This document shows, piece by piece, positions 4,065-64,000 of a stretch of 64,000 bases of DNA. The stretch lies in the NCBI RefSeq assembly GCF_027532945.1, contig NZ_JAPZTZ010000001.1, forward strand, positions 62,001 through 126,000, in the 5' to 3' direction. A program made the translations under genes and the position numbers. Under the pieces are notes generated by a model. That model had not been told where the DNA came from, ran no database searches, and saw only the letters and a list, made by a program, of their open reading frames with translations. Each line of letters begins with the position of its first letter. The first letter of the stretch is position 1. This stretch comes from Phreatobacter sp. (lineage in GTDB: Bacteria > Pseudomonadota > Alphaproteobacteria > Rhizobiales > Phreatobacteraceae).

Positions 4065-4795
4065 CGCGACAACTCCCCGACGAAGTCGCGGGTGCGCGGA
4101 TTCTGCGGATTGCCGAAGATCTCCGCCGGAGAGCCCTGTTCGAGGATCTGCCCGTCCGCCATGAAGACGATCCGGTCGGCGGCGTCGCGGGCGAAGCGCA
4201 TCTCGTGGCTGACGACCACCATGGTCATGCCGGCCTCTTTTAGGTCGCGCATGACGCCGAGCACCGCGCCGACGAGTTCCGGGTCGAGCGCCGAGGTCGG
4301 CTCGTCGAAGAGCATGATCTTCGGCTCCAGCGACAGGGCGCGCGCGATGGCGACGCGCTGCTGCTGGCCGCCGGAAAGTTCGGAGGGGTAATTGCCGGCC
4401 TTCTCCTTCAGCCCCACCCGGTCGAGGGCGGCGATGCCGATGGCCTCGGCCTCCTCGCGGCCCTTGCCGAGCACCTTGCGCAGCGCCAGCGTGACGTTCC
4501 CCAGCGCCGTCATGTGCGGGTAGAGATTGAAGGCCTGGAACACCATGCCGATGCGCCGCCGCATGGCGTTGATGTCGGTGCCCTTGGCCATCAGGTCGAC
4601 GCCGTCGACGAAGACGTGCCCCGCCGTCGGTTCCTCCAGACGGTTGCAGCAGCGCAGCATGGTGGACTTGCCCGAGCCCGAGGGCCCGATGACGAAGACG
4701 AGCTCCTGCGCAGCGACGGAGAAGTCGATGCCGCGCAGGATTTCGGTGGTCCCAAAGCTCTTCCTCAGGCCCCGGACGTCAAGCAAGGCAGACAT
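4061..4795 (-). CDS. amino-acid ABC transporter ATP-binding protein (GlnQ/HisP family)
   Basis: Energising subunit of the importer, 244 aa. All nucleotide-binding motifs are visible: Walker A GPSGSGKST (residues 37-45), Q-loop region VFQAFNLYPHMTALGNV characteristic of polar amino-acid ATPases, signature LSGGQQQRVAIARAL, Walker B plus D-loop MLFDEPTSALDPEL, and the switch His in VVSHEM. The ATG lies in a TGATG overlap with the end of the binding-protein gene (4793-4797), so the four transport genes form one coupled operon. Confidence 0.95.
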   Translation of the reverse strand: MSALLDVRGLRKSFGTTEILRGIDFSVAAQELVFVIGPSGSGKSTMLRCCNRLEEPTAGHVFVDGVDLMAKGTDINAMRRRIGMVFQAFNLYPHMTALGNVTLALRKVLGKGREEAEAIGIAALDRVGLKEKAGNYPSELSGGQQQRVAIARALSLEPKIMLFDEPTSALDPELVGAVLGVMRDLKEAGMTMVVVSHEMRFARDAADRIVFMADGQILEQGSPAEIFGNPQNPRTRDFVGELSR

Positions 4796-17441: not shown

Positions 17442-19541
17442 ATGCTTCCCATCGCCCTCGCAGCAGGTCTCGCCGGCGTCGCGACCGTCGGCGCCAGGCT
17501 CGCCGGCCTGATCGACCTGCCGGTCTATGTCTTCGCCCTGACGCTTGCCGCGGCGGTCGTCGCCTTCCTGGCGCGCGGGACCAGCACGCTCATCCGCGCC
17601 ATCATCGGCTTCCTCGTCGTCTGGCACCTCACCGCCCTTGGCATCCTGCTGCTCAACGAGGCGGGCCGCATTCCCGAGGCGCTCGGCCCCTACCTGCCGA
17701 CGCGCGCCAGCATCCTGCTCTCGGTGATCTTCGGCATCGCCGTCTATGCGCTCAGTTTCGTCGGCACGATCCAGCAGATCACCCGCCTCGCCGACCCCTT
17801 CTTCGAGGCCCGCGACATTGGCGAGGTGAGGCTGCCCTTCGGCCTCTCGTTCCGCTTGCAGGAGCGTTTCATCGCCCACGGCCTGCTCTACATTCTCCTG
17901 GTGATCAACATCGCCCAGGTGCTGGCGACCGTCCTGCTCAACCAGTGGAACAACCGCTTCTACACGGCGCTGCAGCAGCGGGCCGAGGCGACCTTCTGGA
18001 TCGAGCTCCAGTATTTCACCATCGTCGCCTTCCTGTGGGTGATCCTCGCCGTCTACGAGCTCTATCTCACCCAGTTCACCCAGATGCGCTGGCGCACCTG
18101 GATGACCAACCGCATGACCGGCCACTGGCTCGACCGCGGTGGCCATTACCGGATGCGCCTCACCGGCTCGCAGGCCGACAACCCCGACCAGCGCATCGCC
18201 GAGGACATCCGCCTGTTCACCGAGAACACGCTGGGCCTGATGATCCGCTTCTTCTCGGCGATCCTGTCGCTCTATGCCTTCGTGCTGATCCTCTGGGGCC
18301 TGTCGGCGAGCTTCAAGTACAACGTGCTCGGCATCGACCTGGAATCGATCCCCGGCTACCTCGTCTATGCGGCGCTCTTCGTCGCCATCTTCGGCACGGT
18401 CTGTGCCCATTTCATCGGACGCAAGCTGATCGGGATCAACTTCCTGCGTCAGCGCTATGAGGCCGATTTCCGCTACAGCCTGGTGCGGGTTCGTGAGAAC
18501 GACGAGCAGATCGCCCTGCTCAAGGGCGAGCCGGCGGAGGCGCAAGGCCTCAACCGCCGCTTCGCCAATGTGGTCGCCAACTGGTTCGACTATATGAAGT
18601 ACACCAAGCGGCTCACCTGGTTCACGAGCTTCGTCAACCAGGCCTCGATCATCTTCCCCTTCGTGCTGCTGGCGCCCGCCTATTTCTCCGGCGCCGTCCA
18701 GCTTGGCTCACTGACCCAGACGGCCGGCGCCTTCGGGCGGGTGGAATCGGCCCTGTTGATCTTCACCAACCTCTACGCCTCGCTCGCCGACTACAAATCG
18801 GTGATCGACCGCCTCACCGGCTTCGTTCGCTCGGCCGATACGGCCCGCGAGACGCCGCCGGCCGCCATCGCCGGGGCGAAGGATGGCGAGGCCCTGCGGC
18901 TGTCGAACCTCACCGTCACCCTTCCCGACGGCAAGGCGCTGGTCTCAGCCCCCGACATCACGGTCGGCCCCGGCGAGCGCGTGCTCGTCACCGGCCCGTC
19001 CGGTTCGGGCAAGTCCACTCTGTTCCGCGCCATTGCCGGCATCTGGCCGCACGGCTCGGGTGCGGTCAGCGGCCCGGCCGGCGCCGATATCATGCTGCTG
19101 CCTCAGCGGCCCTATTTCCCCGTCGCGACGCTGCGTGACGCGGTGACCTACCCGGCCGAGCGCGGCGCCTATTCGGATGCCGAGATCGTCGCGGCGCTCG
19201 AGGCCATGAACCTGCCCGGCCTCGTCTCCCGTCTCGACGAGGAGGCCGCCTGGCACCAGATCCTCTCCGGCGGCGAGCAGCAGCGCCTGGCGCTGGCCCG
19301 CGCCCTCCTGTGCAAGCCCGACTGGCTCTTCCTCGACGAGGCGACGGCGGCTATCGACGAGGTCGGCGAGGCGGCGCTCTACAAGGCCATCGTCGAGGCC
19401 TTGCCGAAGGCGACCATCGTCTCCATCGGCCATCGCTCGACGCTGGTGAACTTCCATGACCGCCGCGTCCATCTCACCAAGGACGATAACGGCCTGCACG
19501 TTGCCGCCGACGCGCCGCTCATGCCGCTGGCGAAGGCCTGA
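17442..19541 (+). CDS. SbmA/BacA-like ABC transporter (ABC_membrane_2 permease fused to ATPase)
   Basis: 699-aa half-transporter. The first 100 residues add extra hydrophobic helices, then a six-helix ABC_membrane_2 domain with family patterns LLNQWNNRFYTALQQRAEATFW and RMTGHWLDRGGHYRMRL...ADNPDQRIAEDIRLF. The C-terminal ATPase has Walker A GPSGSGKST, LPQRPYFPVATLRDAVTYP, signature LSGGEQQRLALARALL, Walker B LFLDEATAAID and GHRS switch. Members (YddA, BclA, Rv1819c) carry peptides, antimicrobial peptides or cobalamin; BclA relatives in rhizobia import host peptides. Substrate unknown here. Dimer needed for function. Confidence 0.9.
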   Translation: MLPIALAAGLAGVATVGARLAGLIDLPVYVFALTLAAAVVAFLARGTSTLIRAIIGFLVVWHLTALGILLLNEAGRIPEALGPYLPTRASILLSVIFGIAVYALSFVGTIQQITRLADPFFEARDIGEVRLPFGLSFRLQERFIAHGLLYILLVINIAQVLATVLLNQWNNRFYTALQQRAEATFWIELQYFTIVAFLWVILAVYELYLTQFTQMRWRTWMTNRMTGHWLDRGGHYRMRLTGSQADNPDQRIAEDIRLFTENTLGLMIRFFSAILSLYAFVLILWGLSASFKYNVLGIDLESIPGYLVYAALFVAIFGTVCAHFIGRKLIGINFLRQRYEADFRYSLVRVRENDEQIALLKGEPAEAQGLNRRFANVVANWFDYMKYTKRLTWFTSFVNQASIIFPFVLLAPAYFSGAVQLGSLTQTAGAFGRVESALLIFTNLYASLADYKSVIDRLTGFVRSADTARETPPAAIAGAKDGEALRLSNLTVTLPDGKALVSAPDITVGPGERVLVTGPSGSGKSTLFRAIAGIWPHGSGAVSGPAGADIMLLPQRPYFPVATLRDAVTYPAERGAYSDAEIVAALEAMNLPGLVSRLDEEAAWHQILSGGEQQRLALARALLCKPDWLFLDEATAAIDEVGEAALYKAIVEALPKATIVSIGHRSTLVNFHDRRVHLTKDDNGLHVAADAPLMPLAKA

Positions 19542-19557
19542 CGCGATACAGGCATCC

Positions 19558-19577
19558 GGTCCGATTTTTGGACCGGA
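19558..19577. promoter_or_regulatory. putative HxlR operator, site A
   Basis: GGTCC-N7-GGACCGGA within a 9-bp-armed palindrome (ATCCGGTCC 19554-19562, GGACCGGAT 19570-19578), 30 bp before the HxlR start. The same motif with identical spacing recurs at 20277-20296 before the LysE gene. It overlaps a TTGGAC hexamer (19568-19573) that could be a -35 element. It could alternatively be the ABC gene's terminator, but no U-run follows. Confidence 0.6.
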
Positions 19578-19607
19578 TCGCTTGCGGGATTGTGCTAGCA
19601 TCGGGCC

Positions 19608-20273
19608 ATGGCGATGCATGGTCAGTTCTGCGCGGTGGCGCGAGCCCAGGATCTCCTTGGCGGACGATGGTCTCTTCTCGTCGTCCGCGAGCTGCTGTGC
19701 GGCGCGCGCCGGTTCAACGACATCCGGCGCGGAATTCCCCGTATATCCCGCACCATGCTGTCGGAACGCCTACAGACCCTGGCGGCCGAGGGCGTCGTGC
19801 ATCGCAGCGAAGGACCTCATGGCCCCGAATATGATCTCACGGAAGCCGGGCGCGAGCTGAACGAGGTGGTGAAGGCCCTGGGTGTCTGGGGCCAGAGGTG
19901 GCTGCCACGCCATGCCGATCGCGAGGAGATCGACCTCGACCCGCTGCTCCTCGACATGCAGCGCCGGGCTCGCCCCGACAGGCTGCCCGCCCAGCCCTTC
20001 GTCATCCGCTTCGACCTCAAGCATTGCCCAGTGCGCTTCCTGCTCCTGAAAGACAGTGACATTGCTCTCTGCGCGCACAATCCCGGCTTCCCGGAGCCTC
20101 TTTGCCTCGGCGGGCCGGTTTCGGCCCTTGCCGGCTGGTGGCGCGGCGACAGCACTTTCGCCGAGGCGCGGCGCCGCGGGCTTACTCTCACCGGGACAAA
20201 GACGCTCGTCGTGGATTTTCCCACGTGGTTCGAGCGCTATCTCTTCGCCGACGTGGCCGCGGCCACGTCCTGA
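19608..20273 (+). CDS. HxlR-family regulator with C-terminal ligand-binding-like domain
   Basis: 221 aa. Residues 1-100 are a winged HTH of the HxlR/MarR-like type: CAVARAQDLLGGRWSLLVVRELLCGARRFNDIRRGIPRISRTMLSERLQTL. HxlR proteins are usually about 110-130 aa; the extra 100 residues (from about LDPLLLDMQRRARPDRLPAQPF) resemble the SCP2-like extension seen in some HxlR proteins and may bind a hydrophobic effector. Palindromes before this gene and before the next one suggest autoregulation and control of the LysE exporter. Confidence 0.88.
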   Translation: MAMHGQFCAVARAQDLLGGRWSLLVVRELLCGARRFNDIRRGIPRISRTMLSERLQTLAAEGVVHRSEGPHGPEYDLTEAGRELNEVVKALGVWGQRWLPRHADREEIDLDPLLLDMQRRARPDRLPAQPFVIRFDLKHCPVRFLLLKDSDIALCAHNPGFPEPLCLGGPVSALAGWWRGDSTFAEARRRGLTLTGTKTLVVDFPTWFERYLFADVAAATS

Positions 20274-20276
20274 CTG

Positions 20277-20296
20277 GGTCCGGATTTCGGACCGGA
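20277..20296. promoter_or_regulatory. putative HxlR operator, site B
   Basis: GGTCC (20277-20281), seven bases, GGACCGGA (20289-20296): same half-sites and spacing as site A. Located 4 bp after the HxlR stop and 58 bp before the LysE start, so positioned to control lysE independently. Confidence 0.58.
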
Positions 20297-20354
20297 CGCG
20301 ACGGACCGGGCGAGGCATCAAACGGCGACACTCTCACCAGTCGAACCCGTCGCC

Positions 20355-20954
20355 ATGTCCAGCACAACGCTTCTGGCCGTCCCGGCCTTGGCCTTCGTCA
20401 CCTCCATCAGCCCTGGCCCGAGCAACGTCATGCTGCTCGCCTCGGGTGTGAACTTCGGCTTCAGGCGCACGATTCCGCAGATCCTCGGCATCACAATCGG
20501 CTTCAGCACGCTGCTGGTCGCGGCGGGGCTGGGGCTTGGAGCCGTACTTCGAGCGGTTCCGCCACTGGAACTCGCCCTGAAAGTCGTAGGTGGCGCCTAC
20601 CTGCTCTATCTCGCGTGGCGGATCGCCTCGGCCCGGTCCATGGGGCCGGAGGCTGCCGGTGGTACCCGGCCGCTGACCTTCCTCGAATCGGCGGCCTTCC
20701 AGTGGATCAATCCGAAGGCCTGGGTTGTCGCCCTGACCGTCATGGCGGTGCATGCCGACCCGGTCGCGCCCATGGCATCGGCTATGCTCGTGGCCGCCGT
20801 TTTCGCTCTCGTGAACCTGCCGTCGATCTCCGTCTGGGCAGCCTTCGGAACCGCAATGCGCGGCTTCCTTGCCGATCCGGCGCGTCTTAAATGGTTCAAT
20901 ATCGGGATGGGACTTCTGCTGGCAGCGTCGCTCTGGCCGATGCTGCGGACCTAG
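20355..20954 (+). CDS. LysE/RhtB-family amino-acid exporter
   Basis: 199-aa inner-membrane protein with five to six hydrophobic helices. The family N-terminus is clear (LAVPALAFVTSISPGPSNVMLLASGVNFGFRRT, where SPGPN-like motif marks LysE translocators), followed by GAYLLYLAWRIA and FQWINPKAWVVALTV. Exports amino acids or homoserine-lactone-like compounds. Ends 13 bp before the convergent META gene. Likely controlled by HxlR through site B. Confidence 0.92.
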   Translation: MSSTTLLAVPALAFVTSISPGPSNVMLLASGVNFGFRRTIPQILGITIGFSTLLVAAGLGLGAVLRAVPPLELALKVVGGAYLLYLAWRIASARSMGPEAAGGTRPLTFLESAAFQWINPKAWVVALTVMAVHADPVAPMASAMLVAAVFALVNLPSISVWAAFGTAMRGFLADPARLKWFNIGMGLLLAASLWPMLRT

Positions 20955-20967
20955 ATCCAATCCGCCG

Positions 20968-21444
20968 TTAAAAGGCCGGCGCGAAGCTCACCGTGCCGCG
21001 GACGCCGGAGAAGGTCATGCCGCCCCGGCCGTTTGGCCGCCAGCGGTTGGCGCCCTGGATCGCCCAGAAGATGGCGCGCTCCTGCCGGTCCACCTCGCCG
21101 CCGCAGCGCCGCTCGACGAAGTTCAGCGGTCCGAAGCGGATGTCGCTCGGTCCGGTGCGGCGGTAGTCGGCATTGACCGGGTTGCAGCCGCCGAAACCGG
21201 CCATGCGGAAACCCGGCGTGAAGGTGAAGGCGGGGCGGTCGGTGGCGACCGGACGGCGGCCGTTGACGGACGTCACCGCAAGACGGACCCCGGCCGGGAA
21301 GCTGTTGTAGAGCAGGATATCGGCCCGCGAGAGACGCTGCGGACGCGGCTCCTCACGGCGGCGCTGGGCTTCGGCGGAACTGGTCGCGACGAGGAGGGCT
21401 GCGACAGCCAGCGCGGCGGTATGGGAGGCGAGGGCGCGGATCAT
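20968..21444 (-). CDS. secreted META-domain-like protein
   Basis: 158 aa with a signal peptide (residues 1-27, ending SSAEA). The mature part has the HslJ/META signature: FRMAGFGGCNPVNADYRR, then IRFGPLNFVERRCGGEVDRQERAIFWAIQGANRW, with the two conserved cysteines. Family members are linked to envelope stress or heat resistance but biochemical activity is unknown. First 50 residues are Arg-rich. Monocistronic, 50 bp from the sigma-54 regulator's 3' end. Confidence 0.75.
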   Translation of the reverse strand: MIRALASHTAALAVAALLVATSSAEAQRRREEPRPQRLSRADILLYNSFPAGVRLAVTSVNGRRPVATDRPAFTFTPGFRMAGFGGCNPVNADYRRTGPSDIRFGPLNFVERRCGGEVDRQERAIFWAIQGANRWRPNGRGGMTFSGVRGTVSFAPAF

Positions 21445-41520: not shown

Positions 41521-42198
41521 ATGAAGAAAGTCTCCACCGACCACCTCGATCGCATCGTCCAGTTCATCCGGACGAAGGGCAACGGTGACGTGTCGCTTGG
41601 CGACGTGGTCGCTCTGGCCGAGGTCACCGTCGAGTCGCTGTCGAGCTTCTTCCGCTCCATCGACATGTCGGTCTACCGCGAGCTTTCCGACATCGCCTCC
41701 TTCATCACCAACATGAAGGTTGAGGTCGGCCGACTGCAGCCCAATGACCTCAAGCACAGTCGCATCCCGGCCGCCGGCATGGAGCTCGACGCTATCGTCA
41801 AGGCGACCGAGAAGGCCACCGACACGATCATGGGCGCCGCCGAGGAACTCATGGCGGCCGATGCCTCCGACCCCGTCGCCTACAAGGCCATGGTGGACGA
41901 GCGCATGATGCTCATCTTCGAGGCCTGTTCCTTCCAGGACATCACCGGCCAGCGCGTCGCCAAGGTCATCGATACGCTCAAGCATATCGAGATGCGCGTT
42001 ACCCGCTTCGCCGATGCGATCAACGCCGCCGATGCCGACGGCTACCTCTCCGAGGACGAGCGTCGCCGCGAGGAGCGCAAGATCAAGAACATCCTGCACG
42101 GGCCCCAGCTCGACGGCGAGGGTGTGGATCAGAACGACGTCGACGCCCTGTTCGCCAAGCCCGAAAAGAAGGGCAAGGACGCCGCCACCGCGAAGTGA
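41521..42198 (+). CDS. cheZ: CheZ-type CheY-P phosphatase
   Basis: 225-aa mostly helical protein. The catalytic segment ACSFQDITGQRVAKVIDTL carries Asp140 and the in-line Gln144, matching Asp143/Gln147 of E. coli CheZ. A C-terminal acidic tail with VDQNDVDALF is the CheY-binding end. ATG 41521 is used; earlier in-frame starts exist at 41425 and 41482 but the protein homology starts here. Together with cheY forms a minimal on/off pair. Confidence 0.92.
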   Translation: MKKVSTDHLDRIVQFIRTKGNGDVSLGDVVALAEVTVESLSSFFRSIDMSVYRELSDIASFITNMKVEVGRLQPNDLKHSRIPAAGMELDAIVKATEKATDTIMGAAEELMAADASDPVAYKAMVDERMMLIFEACSFQDITGQRVAKVIDTLKHIEMRVTRFADAINAADADGYLSEDERRREERKIKNILHGPQLDGEGVDQNDVDALFAKPEKKGKDAATAK

Positions 42199-42204
42199 CG
42201 GCCC

Positions 42205-42225
42205 GCCCGGCGGATGGCGCCGGGC
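42205..42225 (+). terminator. hairpin after cheZ
   Basis: GCCCGGCG (42205-42212), 5-base loop, CGCCGGGC (42218-42225), 6 bp after the cheZ stop and followed by a weak TCTGT tail. Between convergent genes, so it may terminate either way. Confidence 0.5.
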
Positions 42226-42231
42226 TCTGTC

Positions 42232-43113
42232 TCACCAGACCAGCTTGCGCATCACGTGCCGCGGATGCTGGCTGGTCTCGCCGATGAGCGCCGCGAGGCC
42301 ATCGCGCTTCAGGCCCTCGGGCCCCAGCAGCACCTCCGCGTGGATGCCCTCCGCCAGGAACAGGCAGTCGTAGCCCATGCGCACGGCACCGGCGACGTCG
42401 GTCCGCATGGCATCGCCGATGCACAGCACCCGCGAGGGATCGGGGCGCGTGCCGAGGATGCGCTCCGCATAGTCCCAGCAGGCCTCGTAGGCCGGCTCGT
42501 AGGGCTTGCCGGCATAGAGAACCTCGCCGCCGATGGACTGGTAGCGATCGCCGATGGCGCCGGCGCAGAAAATGAGGTCGTGGCCGACCTCCACCACCTT
42601 GTCGGGATTGCCGCACAGGAAGAACAGGTCGCGCGCCTTCATGCGCTCCAGCCGCTCCTGGTAGTCGTCCGGCGTCTCGGTGCGATCATCGACGAGGCCG
42701 GTGCAGACCACATAGGCCGCCTCCTCGATGGGGACGAGGCGCGTGTCGATGTCCTCGAACACGACGAGGTCGCGCTGTGGGCCGACATGGTGCACGGGCT
42801 CGCCCGGGCGCGTGCGCATGTAGGTGCGCGACACGTCCCCGGACGTGACGATGGCGTCATAGGCCGCCCGCGGTACGCCGAGCCGGTCGAGCTGGCCGAC
42901 CACCACCGGCGCCTGTCGCGGGGCGTTGGTGATGAGGATCACCGGCACGCCCCGCTGGCGGATGCGCACCAGCGCGTCGCAGGCCCCGGGATGGGCGCGC
43001 ATGCCGTTATGCAGCACTCCCCAGACATCGGAGAAGACGAGGTCATAGTCCCCGGCAATGGCGGAGAGCCCGTCGATGACCGGTGGCAGGGCGGAGGGAG
43101 CGAGCGCGTTCAT
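42232..43113 (-). CDS. HAD-IIA family phosphatase (TIGR01459-like)
   Basis: 293 aa. Motif I FSDVWGVLHNG (Asp29, with Trp rather than Asp two residues later, normal for this subfamily), motif II LITNAPRQ, and motif III/IV GAIGDRYQSIGGEVLYAGKPY plus CIGDAMRTDVAGA. Likely hydrolyses sugar or nucleotide phosphates; natural substrate not predictable. Convergent with cheZ. Confidence 0.9.
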   Translation of the reverse strand: MNALAPSALPPVIDGLSAIAGDYDLVFSDVWGVLHNGMRAHPGACDALVRIRQRGVPVILITNAPRQAPVVVGQLDRLGVPRAAYDAIVTSGDVSRTYMRTRPGEPVHHVGPQRDLVVFEDIDTRLVPIEEAAYVVCTGLVDDRTETPDDYQERLERMKARDLFFLCGNPDKVVEVGHDLIFCAGAIGDRYQSIGGEVLYAGKPYEPAYEACWDYAERILGTRPDPSRVLCIGDAMRTDVAGAVRMGYDCLFLAEGIHAEVLLGPEGLKRDGLAALIGETSQHPRHVMRKLVW

Positions 43114-58685: not shown

Positions 58686-60470
58686 ATGGCCATCCGCCAG
58701 CTTTCCGAAGGCATCGCCAACCGCATCGCCGCCGGCGAGGTGATCGAGCGTCCCGCTGCCGCCGTGAAGGAGCTGGTGGAAAACGCCCTCGACGCCGGCG
58801 CCACCCGCATCGACGTGATGATCGGCGCCGGAGGCCGGAGGCTGATCCGCGTCGCCGATGACGGCAGCGGCATGGTCAGGGACGACCTCGTCCTCTGCGT
58901 CGAGCGCCATGCCACGTCGAAGCTGCAGGACGAGGACCTGCTCGACATCCGCACCCTCGGCTTCCGTGGCGAGGCGTTGCCCTCTATCGGCGCGGTGTCG
59001 CGGCTGACCATCACCACCCGCCACGCCGATGAGCCCCATGCCTGGCAGCTCACAGTGGATGCGGGCCTGAAGGGCGAGGCGCGTCCCGCTGCCCTTGCCG
59101 CCGGCACCCGCGTCGAGATCGCCGACCTCTTCGCCGCGACCCCCGCGCGCCTCAAGTTCCTGAAGAGCGACCGGGCCGAGGCGGCGGCGGTCGCCGACGT
59201 GGTCAAGCGCCTCGCCATGGCCCATCCGACGGTCGCCTTCTCTCTCGCTGACGATGAGGGCACGACCCGCCACTTCCCTGCCCAGGCCTTCGGGGAGGCC
59301 GGCCTCCTCGCCCGCATCGGCGACGTGGCCGGCCGCGACTTCGCCCAGAACGCCTTGGCCCTCGACGTCTGGCGTGGCGAGGTCCGGCTCTATGGCTTTG
59401 CCGGGCTGCCGACCTTCGGCAAGGCGACGGGGGCGAGCCAGTTCCTCTTCGTCAACGGCCGCCCGATCCGCGACCGGCTGGTGCTTGGTGCCATCCGCGG
59501 CGCCTATGGCGACACCATGCCCCGTGACCGGCATCCGGCCGTGTCCCTGTTCCTCGAGCTCGACCCGCGCGAGGTCGACGTCAACGTCCATCCCGCCAAG
59601 ACGGAGGTGCGCTTCCGCGACCCGGCCCTCGTCCGCGGCCTGATCGTCGCGGCCATCCGCGAGGCTATCGCTGCCGCTTCGCCGACGACCTCCTCCACGC
59701 TTGGTGCGGCGACGGTGGCGGCTTTCCGCCCGGCGGCAGCGCGCGCGGGCAGCTATGACTGGCGATCCTCGCCCGCGCGGCCCTTCGTGCCCGGCCTGTC
59801 GGACGGCCCTCAGGCAGGTTTTGCCCTCGACCTGCCGCCGGCGGCGGATGCCCGCGCCGCCGAGGCGCCCGCCGCCGAGGACGACCTCGACCGGCCACTC
59901 GGTGCGGCGCGCGCCCAGATCCACGGCACCTATATCCTCGCCCAGACGCGCGAAGGCCTCGTCATCGTCGACCAGCACGCCGCACACGAACGGCTCGTCT
60001 ACGAACGGATGAAGCGGCAGATGGACGTGGCCGGCATCGCCCGGCAGGCGCTCCTCATCCCGGTTGTGGTCGAACTCGACCCGGCCGATGCCTCCCGCCT
60101 CGTCGATCGTGCCGACGACCTCGCGCGGTTCGGGCTGGTGGTGGAGGGCTTCGGGCCCGGCGCGGTCGTGGTGCGCGAGACCCCGGCCATGCTCGGCGAG
60201 GTCGATGCCGAGGCGCTGGTGCGCGACATTGCCGAACATCTCGCCGAATGGGACAGCGCTGCGCCGCTGGAGACGCGATTGCTGGCGGTTGCCGCGACCA
60301 TGGCCTGCCACGGCTCGGTCCGCGCCGGGCGGCAGCTTCGCCCCGCCGAGATGAACGCCCTGCTCCGCGAGATGGAGGCAACCCCGGCCTCAGCCCAGTG
60401 CAATCACGGCCGGCCGACCTCGGTCGCCCTGTCGCTCGCCGATGTCGAGCGCCTGTTCGGCCGGCGCTAG
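58686..60470 (+). CDS. mutL: DNA mismatch repair protein MutL (endonuclease type)
   Basis: 594 aa from [19 protein letters not shown]; the frame is open from 58626 but the conserved N-terminus starts here. GHKL ATPase motifs: [32 protein letters not shown]. The C-terminal dimer domain has [12 protein letters not shown], which fits the endonuclease pattern DQHA-x2-E-x4-E, plus ACHGS and CNHGRPT, so it nicks DNA itself. Ends in an overlap with the convergent patatin gene. Confidence 0.97.
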
Positions 60471-61369
60471 CGACCGCGCCGCGTCTCCCCCACCACGTCC
60501 GCCGGCACCGCCTCCAGCGCGATGGTAACGCGCCGCTTCACCTCGTCCTTCATCGGCTCGCAGGCCGTGAGGATCTCCCGCACCTTCAGGAAATCGAGCA
60601 CCCGGAACGGATCGACCGGCGGCCGCAGGTGGATGGTCGGCCGGTGTTCGGCGAGGCGCGCGGCGCTCAGCACCTGCATCATCAGCGTCACCGAGCCGAA
60701 CAGCGCGTCCCAGACATTGGGCACCACCTCGTCGATCTCCAGCGCCAATTCCGAGCCGTGCAGCACATCGACCGCGACAGTGACCGGCGCCGACACCTTG
60801 TCTACCGGCACCGGATTGATCGTGCCGCCGTCGATCAGCACGCGGCCGGCATGGCGCACCGGGCTGACAACGCCGGGAATCGCCATGGAGGCGGCGACCG
60901 CCGGCAGGAGCGGCCCCGTCGAGAAGGCGACGTCCACCCGCTCGTAGAAATCGGTCGCGACCACGGTGAGCGGCGTCACCAGCTCCGAGAAGTCCTTCGG
61001 CACCTGCGCCGGAAACAGAGCGTCGAGCAGCCGCTCCGGATCGACCAGCATGGGATTGGTGATCCCCTGGCGGAACAGGTCGGAGAAGCGGCCGACGCGG
61101 GCCGAGAAGATGGCCTTCAGCACGTCCGGCTTCACCTGCATGACGTCGAGCGCATAGGCGCGCATCTCCGCCCCGCTCATCCCCGCGCAGTAGCAGGCGC
61201 CGATGATGGCGCCGATGGAGGTGCCGGCAACCTCCCGCGGCCTGAGGCCGAGTTCGTCGAGCGCCTCGATCACCACGATATGGGCGAGGCCCTTGGCGCC
61301 GCCGCCCCCGAGGACAAGCGCGAAATCGTGGGGCGGATAGGGTGCGGGGCGGATGACGGCGGTGCTCAT
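60467..61369 (-). CDS. patatin-like phospholipase (RssA-type)
   Basis: 300 aa from [16 protein letters not shown] at 61369. Serine-Asp dyad: oxyanion loop [11 protein letters not shown] (20-30), nucleophile Ser51 in [12 protein letters not shown], and Asp of [12 protein letters not shown]. Hydrolyses membrane lipids or acyl esters. Its stop shares the palindrome CTAG (60467-60470) with the mutL stop. Upstream, the same frame has no stop all the way into the histidine-kinase gene (see findings). Confidence 0.92.
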
Positions 61370-61471
61370 GCCCCATCCTACCCTCACCGGCGCGGGACAG
61401 GGAGCCACCTGGCCGACTTGCGGTGGCATGGCCGGCGGGCTTTGATCGCAGGCCATTGCTCCGGACGATTC

Positions 61472-62329
61472 ATGACCGACCTGACCCCGACCATCGCCGC
61501 CGCCTTTGATCCCGCCCATGCGCCTGCCGATGCGCTGGCGGTCAATGCGGCCATCCTCAAGCGGCTGGAGAACTGGGACAACTGGGCCCATCCGCCCGAG
61601 ACCATCCGGCAGATGCGTCGCGAAGGCCGCGGCGCCTTTCCCGCGCCGGTCCTCTCGCCCCGGGCGCGGACCATGACCATTGACGGCCCGCATGGGCCTA
61701 TCGGGCTGAGGATCATCACCCCCGAGGGGCAGGCGAGGGGCGTTTATCTCCACATTCACGGCGGCGGCTGGGTGCTCGGCAGCGTCGACCAGCAGGACCA
61801 GTGGCTGGAGCGCTTCGCCGACAGGGCCGGCATGGCCTGCGTCTCCGTCGATTATCGCCTCGCCCCCGAAAATCCCTATCCGCAGGGCCCGGACGACTGC
61901 GAGGCGGCAGCGCTGTGGATCGCCCGCGAGGCCAAGGCGCTGTTCGGCACCGATCGCCTCATCATCGGCGGCGAGAGCGCCGGCGCGCACCTCTCGGCCA
62001 CCACGCTGCTGCGCCTGCGCGACCGGCACGGCGTCATGCCCTTCCGCGCGGCGAACCTTCATGCCGGCTGCTACGACCTCGCGCTGACCCCCTCGGTCCG
62101 CCGCTGGGGCACGGACAAGCTGGTGCTCAACACCCGCGACATCCAGATGTTCGTACGCCACTACCTGCTGCACACAGGCGCGGTGACCGACCCCGACGTC
62201 TCGCCGCTCCAGGCGGATCTGAAGGGCATGCCGCCGGCCCTCTTCACGGTCGGCTCGCAGGATCCGCTGGTGGACGACACGCTGTTCATGGCGCCGCGCT
62301 GGTCCGCCGCCGGCAACAAGGCCGACCTT
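61472..62329 (+). pseudogene. alpha/beta hydrolase, hormone-sensitive-lipase family, truncated at 3' end
   Basis: 286 recognisable codons. Oxyanion HGGG (residues 96-99, LHIHGGGWVLGS), nucleophile Ser169 in IGGESAGAH and Asp264 in GSQDPLVDD are present, but homology stops after RWSAAGNKADL. The final 35-40 residues with the catalytic His (normally YPGGxHGF) are missing. From about 62330 the frame continues to 63316 only as antisense to the histidine-kinase gene. As it stands it should be inactive. Whether it is a real deletion or an assembly error is discussed in findings. Confidence 0.8.
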
Positions 62330-64000
62330 GGACTTCACGATCAGCCGGTGCTCCAGCACGCGTGCGATGCGCTCGACGATGGACAGGCCGAGGCCGAGCC
62401 CGCGGGCGATCTTGGCACCCTGCTCCAGCCGCTGGAACTCCTGGAAGATGATGCGCTGCTTGGCCTGGGGAATGCCGGGTCCGGTGTCGTGCACCTCCAG
62501 CGACAGGCGCTTGCCGCGCCGCCGGCAGCCGACCAGGACGCCGCCCTTGCTGGTGTACTTGATGGCGTTGGACACGAGGTTCTGCAGCAGGCGCCGCATC
62601 AGCCGCCGGTCGGAATGGATGGCGAGCGAAGTCGGTACGAAGGTCAGCGTCAGGCCCTTCTGCGCCGCCATGGGGGCAAATTCCACCGCCAGCTGGCGGA
62701 ACAGCTCGTCGAGGCGGAAGCTGGCGATCTCCGGCTTCATCGCTCCCGCATCGAGGCGGGAAATGTCGAGCAGCGCGCCGAGGATCTCCTCCACCGCTTC
62801 CAGCGAGGCGTCGATATTGTCGACAAGCCGCCGCTCGTCGCTCTCCCCCTGCCGCTCGACGAGGCTCGTCGTGTAGAGGCGCGCGGCGTTCAGCGGCTGG
62901 AGGATGTCGTGGCTCGCCGCGGCGAGGAAGCGTGTCTTCGACAGGTTCGCCTCGTCCGCCTCCTGCTTCGCCTGGGCGAGCTCGCCGTTAAGCCGCATCA
63001 GCTCCTCGGTGCGCTCGCGCACGCGCCGCTCCAGCGTCTCGTTGGCCCGCTCCAGTTCCTCGGCCGCCGCCACCGAGGCGGTGACGTCCGTGTAGGTGGT
63101 GACGATGCCGCCGTCGGGCAGGCGCGCCGCGCGCACCTCGACCACGAGCCCGAGCATGGCGAGGCGTTCGATCTGCGGCTCCTCGGCGCGCAGCAGGCGA
63201 TTGGCACGCTCGGCGACCAGCGTATCGATGTCGCCGGGGCCGAACTCTCCGCGCGCGGCCAGCGCCCGCACCACCCGGTCGAAGCCGGCGCCGATATGCA
63301 GCGTCTCCGGCGGTAGCGCCAGCACCTCGGCGAAGGGCCGGTTCCACACCATCAGCTTGCCCTCGGCATCGAAGACGCTGACCCCCTGGCGGGCATGTTC
63401 GAGGGCCGTCTGAAGCACCTCGCGGTTGTACTGCATGGCGGCATTGGCGTCGTCGAGCAGCTTCAGCGCGTCGGTGGTCGAGACCGAGCGCTTCTTGAGG
63501 AGCAGCGACAGGACGAGGCGCGAGGAGGCCGTGCCGATGGCCGAGGCGAGCAGGCGCTCGGAATAGCGCAAGAGGTCGATGTCGGCTTCGGTCTGCGATT
63601 CCAGCGGCACGCCCCGCTCGAAGGCGTAACTGGAGAAGGCGGCATCCGTGCGCTCGGCGCCCAAATAGCGTGCCACCGTCGAGCGCACGTCCTCCACCGT
63701 CACGGCGCTGCGCCAGAGCCGGAAGCTCGGGGCGTAGTCCGATTGCGGCACCGGCACGAAGAGCTTGGACTGGACGATCTCGATGGCCGAGGGCCGGCGG
63801 ATCAGCGAGATGGCCACATAGAGCACGACATTGATGGCGAGCGACCAGACGACACCATGGGTGAGCGGCGCCATTTCGCCGAGGCCGAACAGGTGCTGCG
63901 GCTTCAGCGCGTCAATGCCGAAGGGGCCGTCCGTTGCGAAGGCCGTGGGCACCGCCCCCGTGGTCGCCAGCATCGGCAGCAGCAGCGTATAGGCCCAGAC
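62321..64000 (-). CDS. PAS-type sensor histidine kinase, both ends incomplete
   Basis: The frame enters from beyond 64000 with membrane segments (VWAYTLLLPMLA, VVWSLAINVVLYVAISLI) like the last helices of a sodium-solute-symporter-type sensor. Then a PAS domain (ALEHARQGVSVFDAEGKLMVWNRPF), a coiled coil, dimerisation helix FLAAASHDILQPLNAARLY with phospho-His, and HATPase (LVSNAIKYT; DTGPGIP; GLGLGLSIVERIARVL). The last HATPase strand and the receiver domain expected in this hybrid-kinase family are absent: homology ends at IVKSKVG at 62321, and the frame runs on as antisense of the hydrolase without a stop until the patatin stop at 60467. Confidence 0.82.

Follow-up and report, generated by a model that had tools for sequence, protein, structure and literature searches.

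The window analysed here is a stretch of 64,000 nucleotides (G000:C5:62001-126000, where G000 is the source genome), and towards its far end two convergent genes, a hydrolase and a sensor histidine kinase, both break off at a single point. The features of the locus are as follows.

61472 to 62329, plus strand: hydrolase of the HSL family (Abhydrolase_3), which keeps residues 1-286 of roughly 320; the tail with the presumed catalytic histidine is lost.
62321 to 62329, no strand: likely deletion junction; GGCCGA and CT are shared by the breakpoints, and the one base between them differs in G006.
62321 to 64000, continuing past the window, minus strand: hybrid-type sensor histidine kinase, probably SLC5/STAC; the last 159 residues are lost.
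61472 to 63316, plus strand: apparently accidental frame of hydrolase and antisense kinase, 614 amino acids.
60467 to 64000, minus strand: apparently accidental frame of kinase, antisense hydrolase and patatin, 1,644 codons including the part outside the window.
60467 to 61369, minus strand: patatin-like phospholipase gene; the closest NCBIfam model is RssA, below its cut-off, and the gene has about the same length in G006.

On the plus strand, the ORF list gives a frame open from 60248 to 63316, running across the hydrolase (start 61472) and beyond. The minus-strand frame stays open from 60467 past the window edge to the window-equivalent position 65401 (C5:122467-127401), and the patatin domain recognised by Pfam shares its frame with the kinase. 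Both frames thus read past the junction, to 63316 and through the patatin stop at 60467, as the original prediction had it. Its estimate of 1,168 codons for the fused minus-strand frame was right in that the frame is continuous through the patatin gene, but the frame is longer in fact, measuring 1,644 codons from stop to stop once it is followed beyond the window.

We compared the locus across 61 genomes, consisting of G000 itself and 60 others, 11 of which are other Phreatobacter genomes. The G000 assembly measures 4.13 Mb in 35 contigs, with a completeness of 97%. Its closest relative is G006, at about 91% identity; the 60 others did not include another genome of its species. The four named loci nearest to the hydrolase (83-84% identity) all come from genome bins, three of them Phreatobacter sp. 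and one a Rhizobiales bacterium.

The window copy of the hydrolase retains the Abhydrolase_3 domain (Pfam) and, in its translation, the GESAG nucleophile. The Pfam match reaches profile position 197 of 210 before it is cut at the junction, and homology to G006 stops at 62328, which bears out a predicted cut at 62329. The intact G006 homologue resembles the HSL-family esterases ORF30 (8q03) and MGS-MilE3 (5jd5) over nearly its whole length (phmmer E about 1e-106 to both), and its segment GCHVFIAFPG, lost in the window, aligns with GAHGFVAFPG of ORF30, the closest solved relative; the histidine segment was compared with 8q03 only, and 5jd5 scores equally well. Unlike ORF30, the window hydrolase ends before the conserved-histidine segment, and the histidine that an HSL-family enzyme carries near its C-terminus is gone with the tail. 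We take the lost histidine to be the catalytic one, as in the HSL family, and the 8q03 alignment agrees with this. Since the 34 residues that are lost include the histidine of the conserved segment, the remaining 286-residue hydrolase should, to judge from its sequence, be inactive.

The kinase carries PAS, HisKA and HATPase_c domains (Pfam), of which HATPase_c is incomplete in the window. Its match reaches profile position 97 of 111 and is cut at the junction, and homology to G006 starts at 62320-62321, in agreement with the proposal that the gene is cut at 62321 and lacks the last HATPase strand. A receiver domain had also been expected to be missing, and the window kinase indeed has no Pfam match to one, whereas the tail of the G006 kinase contains Response_reg (PF00072, residues 1094-1205 of 1216) along with the end of HATPase_c. 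The 159 residues lost from the window kinase comprise the last HATPase strand, a linker and the receiver.

With regard to family, the kinase is a probable SLC5/STAC hybrid histidine kinase. The literature describes a PAS domain and a C-terminal receiver in SLC5/STAC hybrid kinases (PMC9100948) and names CrbS, CbrA and RpuS among the SLC5/STAC kinases. By its kinase-receiver part, the protein sits close to the NahK/ErcS hybrid kinases: the model NF041832 scored 451 bits against a cut-off of 400, and the NahK model NF041831 scored 421, below its cut-off of 1500. The N-terminal part of the G006 kinase (residues 43-511) matches PDB 10ed_A, which is named only 'histidine kinase'. A Pfam scan of the same protein gave no match to STAC and none to an SLC5 symporter, and since the symporter match is missing, the SLC5/STAC label stays at probable. 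CbrA is a non-hybrid relative of the hybrid kinases CrbS and RpuS. The PAS, HisKA and HATPase_c domains of these two hybrids are also found here, and their C-terminal receiver is found in the Phreatobacter relatives, G006 included, but the window kinase has neither that receiver nor the last HATPase strand. Because its ATP-binding domain has lost the last strand and the receiver is missing, the truncated kinase should be inactive, or at least without an internal phosphate relay.

In all 11 other Phreatobacter genomes, the hydrolase and the kinase are tail-to-tail neighbours with an extra segment between the ends of the matches. The hydrolase runs 34-35 residues further in all 11 and the kinase 159 residues further in 10, and it is against these intact homologues that the missing lengths of 34 and 159 residues could be estimated, as had been proposed. 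The eleventh relative is G001: its hydrolase is complete, and in its kinase a gap of 25 bp, as compared with G008, shifts the reading frame of the receiver. Accordingly, 10 of the 11 relatives have the intact hydrolase, kinase and receiver in the expected order, and in none did we find a homologue with the same short C-terminus. The two stops lie 1 to 25 bases apart in the 10 relatives with both genes intact, and 1 base apart in G006. The lesion in the G001 receiver (L027, about position 4322) is independent of that in G000 and sits in a fragmented genome bin; the gap could be real or an error of that bin.

The wider neighbourhood is also conserved. C5 aligned to one G006 contig over the 41.4 kb that lead to the junction and the 7.8 kb that follow it, at about 91% and 89% identity on the two sides, and beyond the 7.8 kb the alignment resumes in further blocks almost to the contig end. 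Compared with G008, the blocks were shorter and more broken, with their order kept.

Relative to G006, G000 shows a net loss of 595 bp at the junction, and the length step relative to G008 is 603 bp. In G006, the 595 bp break down into 105 + 480 for the lost tails, stops included, 1 base that separates the two genes and the 9 bases of overlap. At the breakpoints, one flank in G006 is GGCCGAGCT and the other is GGCCGACCT, while the window carries GGCCGACCT; GGCCGA and CT are common to both flanks and the window, separated by one mismatched base. The flanks in G006 share a 7-base run, CGGCCGA, followed by one mismatch and then CT, and the window base preceding GGCCGA is unlike the one in this run. 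When pairs of points were drawn at random from the G006 stretch (200,000 trials), the two points shared 6 or more bases in a row in 0.41% of the trials and 8 or more in 0.06%. Given the 0.41% figure, the microhomology goes beyond the usual chance level. Judged against G006, its length would lie between 6 and 9 bases.

The locus thus has the features of a microhomology-flanked deletion: a segment present in the relatives and absent from G000 between collinear neighbours, and a short identical sequence at both ends with one copy kept. The shared breakpoint run and the 595 bp absent relative to G006 match the deletion considered in the original prediction, a single event that truncated both convergent genes and left a short overlap. 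The exact junction was present in 0 of 20 other genomes, a weak test given that the relatives carry substitutions there. We also found that the G006 segment folds somewhat better than its shuffles (z -2.26; 0 of 20 shuffles as good); a hairpin may have helped to drive the deletion, and our case does not lean on it.

Between G000 and G006, what remains of the hydrolase has a pairwise dN/dS of 0.060 and what remains of the kinase one of 0.044. G000 has 2 amino-acid changes of its own in the hydrolase and 5 in the kinase, compared to 0 and 3 unique to G006. Since dN/dS is low and both remainders are open with little decay, the event is either recent or artefactual, and the undecayed remainders are equally compatible with both.

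Together, these findings make it likely that a single recent 595-bp deletion at microhomology cut the facing 3' ends of the two convergent genes. The deletion would have taken place between the similar short sequences (GGCCGA.CT), with slippage during replication, or end joining, at this microhomology as the likely route, and the closeness of the two stops would explain why one event struck both genes. Its outcome would be two pseudogenes, both proteins having presumably lost their function, with each truncated gene reading on into antisense sequence in a phase that is often open in this G+C-rich DNA. Such a deletion is an ordinary kind of mutation and involves no new principle. It resembles the short-homology deletions that make bacterial pseudogenes in its short shared breakpoint sequence and conserved-looking remainders, and differs in that two convergent genes are hit together. 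If real, it means that one Phreatobacter lineage has recently lost the function of both genes.

An unlikely alternative, yet the one that survives best, is that the junction is a local artefact of library preparation, a chimeric read, scaffolding or gap closing and that the cells carry intact genes. Both remainders show strong purifying selection and still have open frames, which speaks for an artefact, as do the fragmentation and completeness of the assembly and a premature stop in another gene on the contig. However, assemblers normally need k-mer overlaps longer than 9 bases, and the overlap here is at most 9. Moreover, our searches located the missing piece neither at a contig end nor elsewhere. 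When the 589-bp segment of G006 was searched as DNA against the whole G000 assembly, at least 46 short matches had an E value no higher than 10. The top one, among the 40 of 247 first-look candidates that were scored, spans 40 bases with 42 bits. The hydrolase protein had a single match in the assembly, the truncated copy, and the next best of the 29 kinase matches was a 40% paralogue (residues 811-1209) in its own open frame. A second copy of the lost 3' ends, which the original prediction regarded as a sign of misassembly, was therefore sought by DNA and protein searches and not found, and we rejected intact copies elsewhere in the assembly.

We also compared C5 with G006 and G008 for an excess of gene-breaking deletions. 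Relative to G006, the length changes by 80 bp or more in 17 steps, which our reading of the two chains assigns to five apparent losses in G000 (1,017, 380, 80, 120 and 595), six changes in G006 (243, 218, 634, 1,403, 988 and 1,631) and two gains in G000 (1,235 and 1,290), leaving four (290, 144, 524 and 1,833) outside these classes. The four apparent G000-specific losses other than the 595-bp step show no clear mid-gene cut, which argues against a local artefact; the 1,017 and 380 junctions were judged by ORF maps only, and the 80 and 120 steps by their position between window ORFs. Turning to C-termini, the scope of our test of stop-to-stop frames, we found 132 frames of at least 100 codons on C5 that match G006 at 93% or more, and C-termini differed in 12 of them; in the reverse direction, from G006 to C5, they differed in 10 of 135. 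One of the 12 is the kinase frame, ten were scanned with Pfam and C5:4270-5109 lay outside the scan. Three of the ten had Pfam matches (LTXXQ, JmjC_2 and DUF2155) and seven had none, and the DUF2155 and LTXXQ genes have the same ends in G000 and G006 save for small differences in low-complexity tails. On these length-step and C-terminus controls, we rejected the idea that the contig as a whole has too many gene-breaking deletions, which would have pointed to a poor assembly. Returning to the deletion, we infer that the junction is probably present in cells.

The original prediction considered the long fused frames to be unusual, and this did not hold up. The kinase frame traverses the hydrolase in the codon-aligned antisense phase, which is free of stops in six of the 11 relatives (G006, G001, G002, G010, G011 and G005) and has one or two stops in the remaining five. 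Since this phase is open in so many relatives, the long frames need no selection; they are a by-product of G+C-rich coding that is ordinary for the genus. It is very doubtful that Phreatobacter repeatedly sheds the kinase receiver (2 of 12 genomes, with unrelated lesions) in favour of another signalling form, the deleted lineage making a kinase-patatin fusion. Hardly credible, too, is a functional fusion in which the kinase, the antisense stretch and the patatin form one selected protein. The frame is open as far as the patatin stop, but the relatives show that such openness arises without selection, the ATP-binding domain of the kinase is cut, and the fused frame is found in 0 of 11 relatives, with the segment present in all 11; a selected fused frame was rejected on the openness of the antisense phase in relatives. 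Annotation pipelines risk calling a spurious protein here, as long as 1,644 codons and composed of a transporter-like kinase, antisense filler and patatin; no protein should be annotated from the fused ORF.

A chimeric join of two distant loci or two organisms would also make both genes stop at one point, but it is extremely improbable, given that neighbours, order and orientation are identical in 11 of 11 same-genus genomes and that both sides match one and the same G006 contig. Of the two options originally offered, a recent deletion or a chimeric join, the deletion is favoured, and a join of unrelated places is contradicted by the synteny with the 11 relatives, which is long-range with G006 and G008.

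Elsewhere on the contig and outside the window, a JmjC_2 cupin gene (L118:1395-1913; G000:C5:21395-21916) has an in-frame TAG at codon 174 where G006 has TGG, and the remainder of its frame is open. This could be a second recent gene damage or a consensus error. Two segments of about 1.3 kb (G000:C5:33066-34386 and 41572-43028; L118 and L119) are absent from the corresponding places in G006 and G008, and the four ORFs tested in them had no Pfam match. Within the window, a 1.4-kb segment at 19541-20969 is present in G008 and missing in G006, and because G008 has it, the difference is probably a loss in G006.
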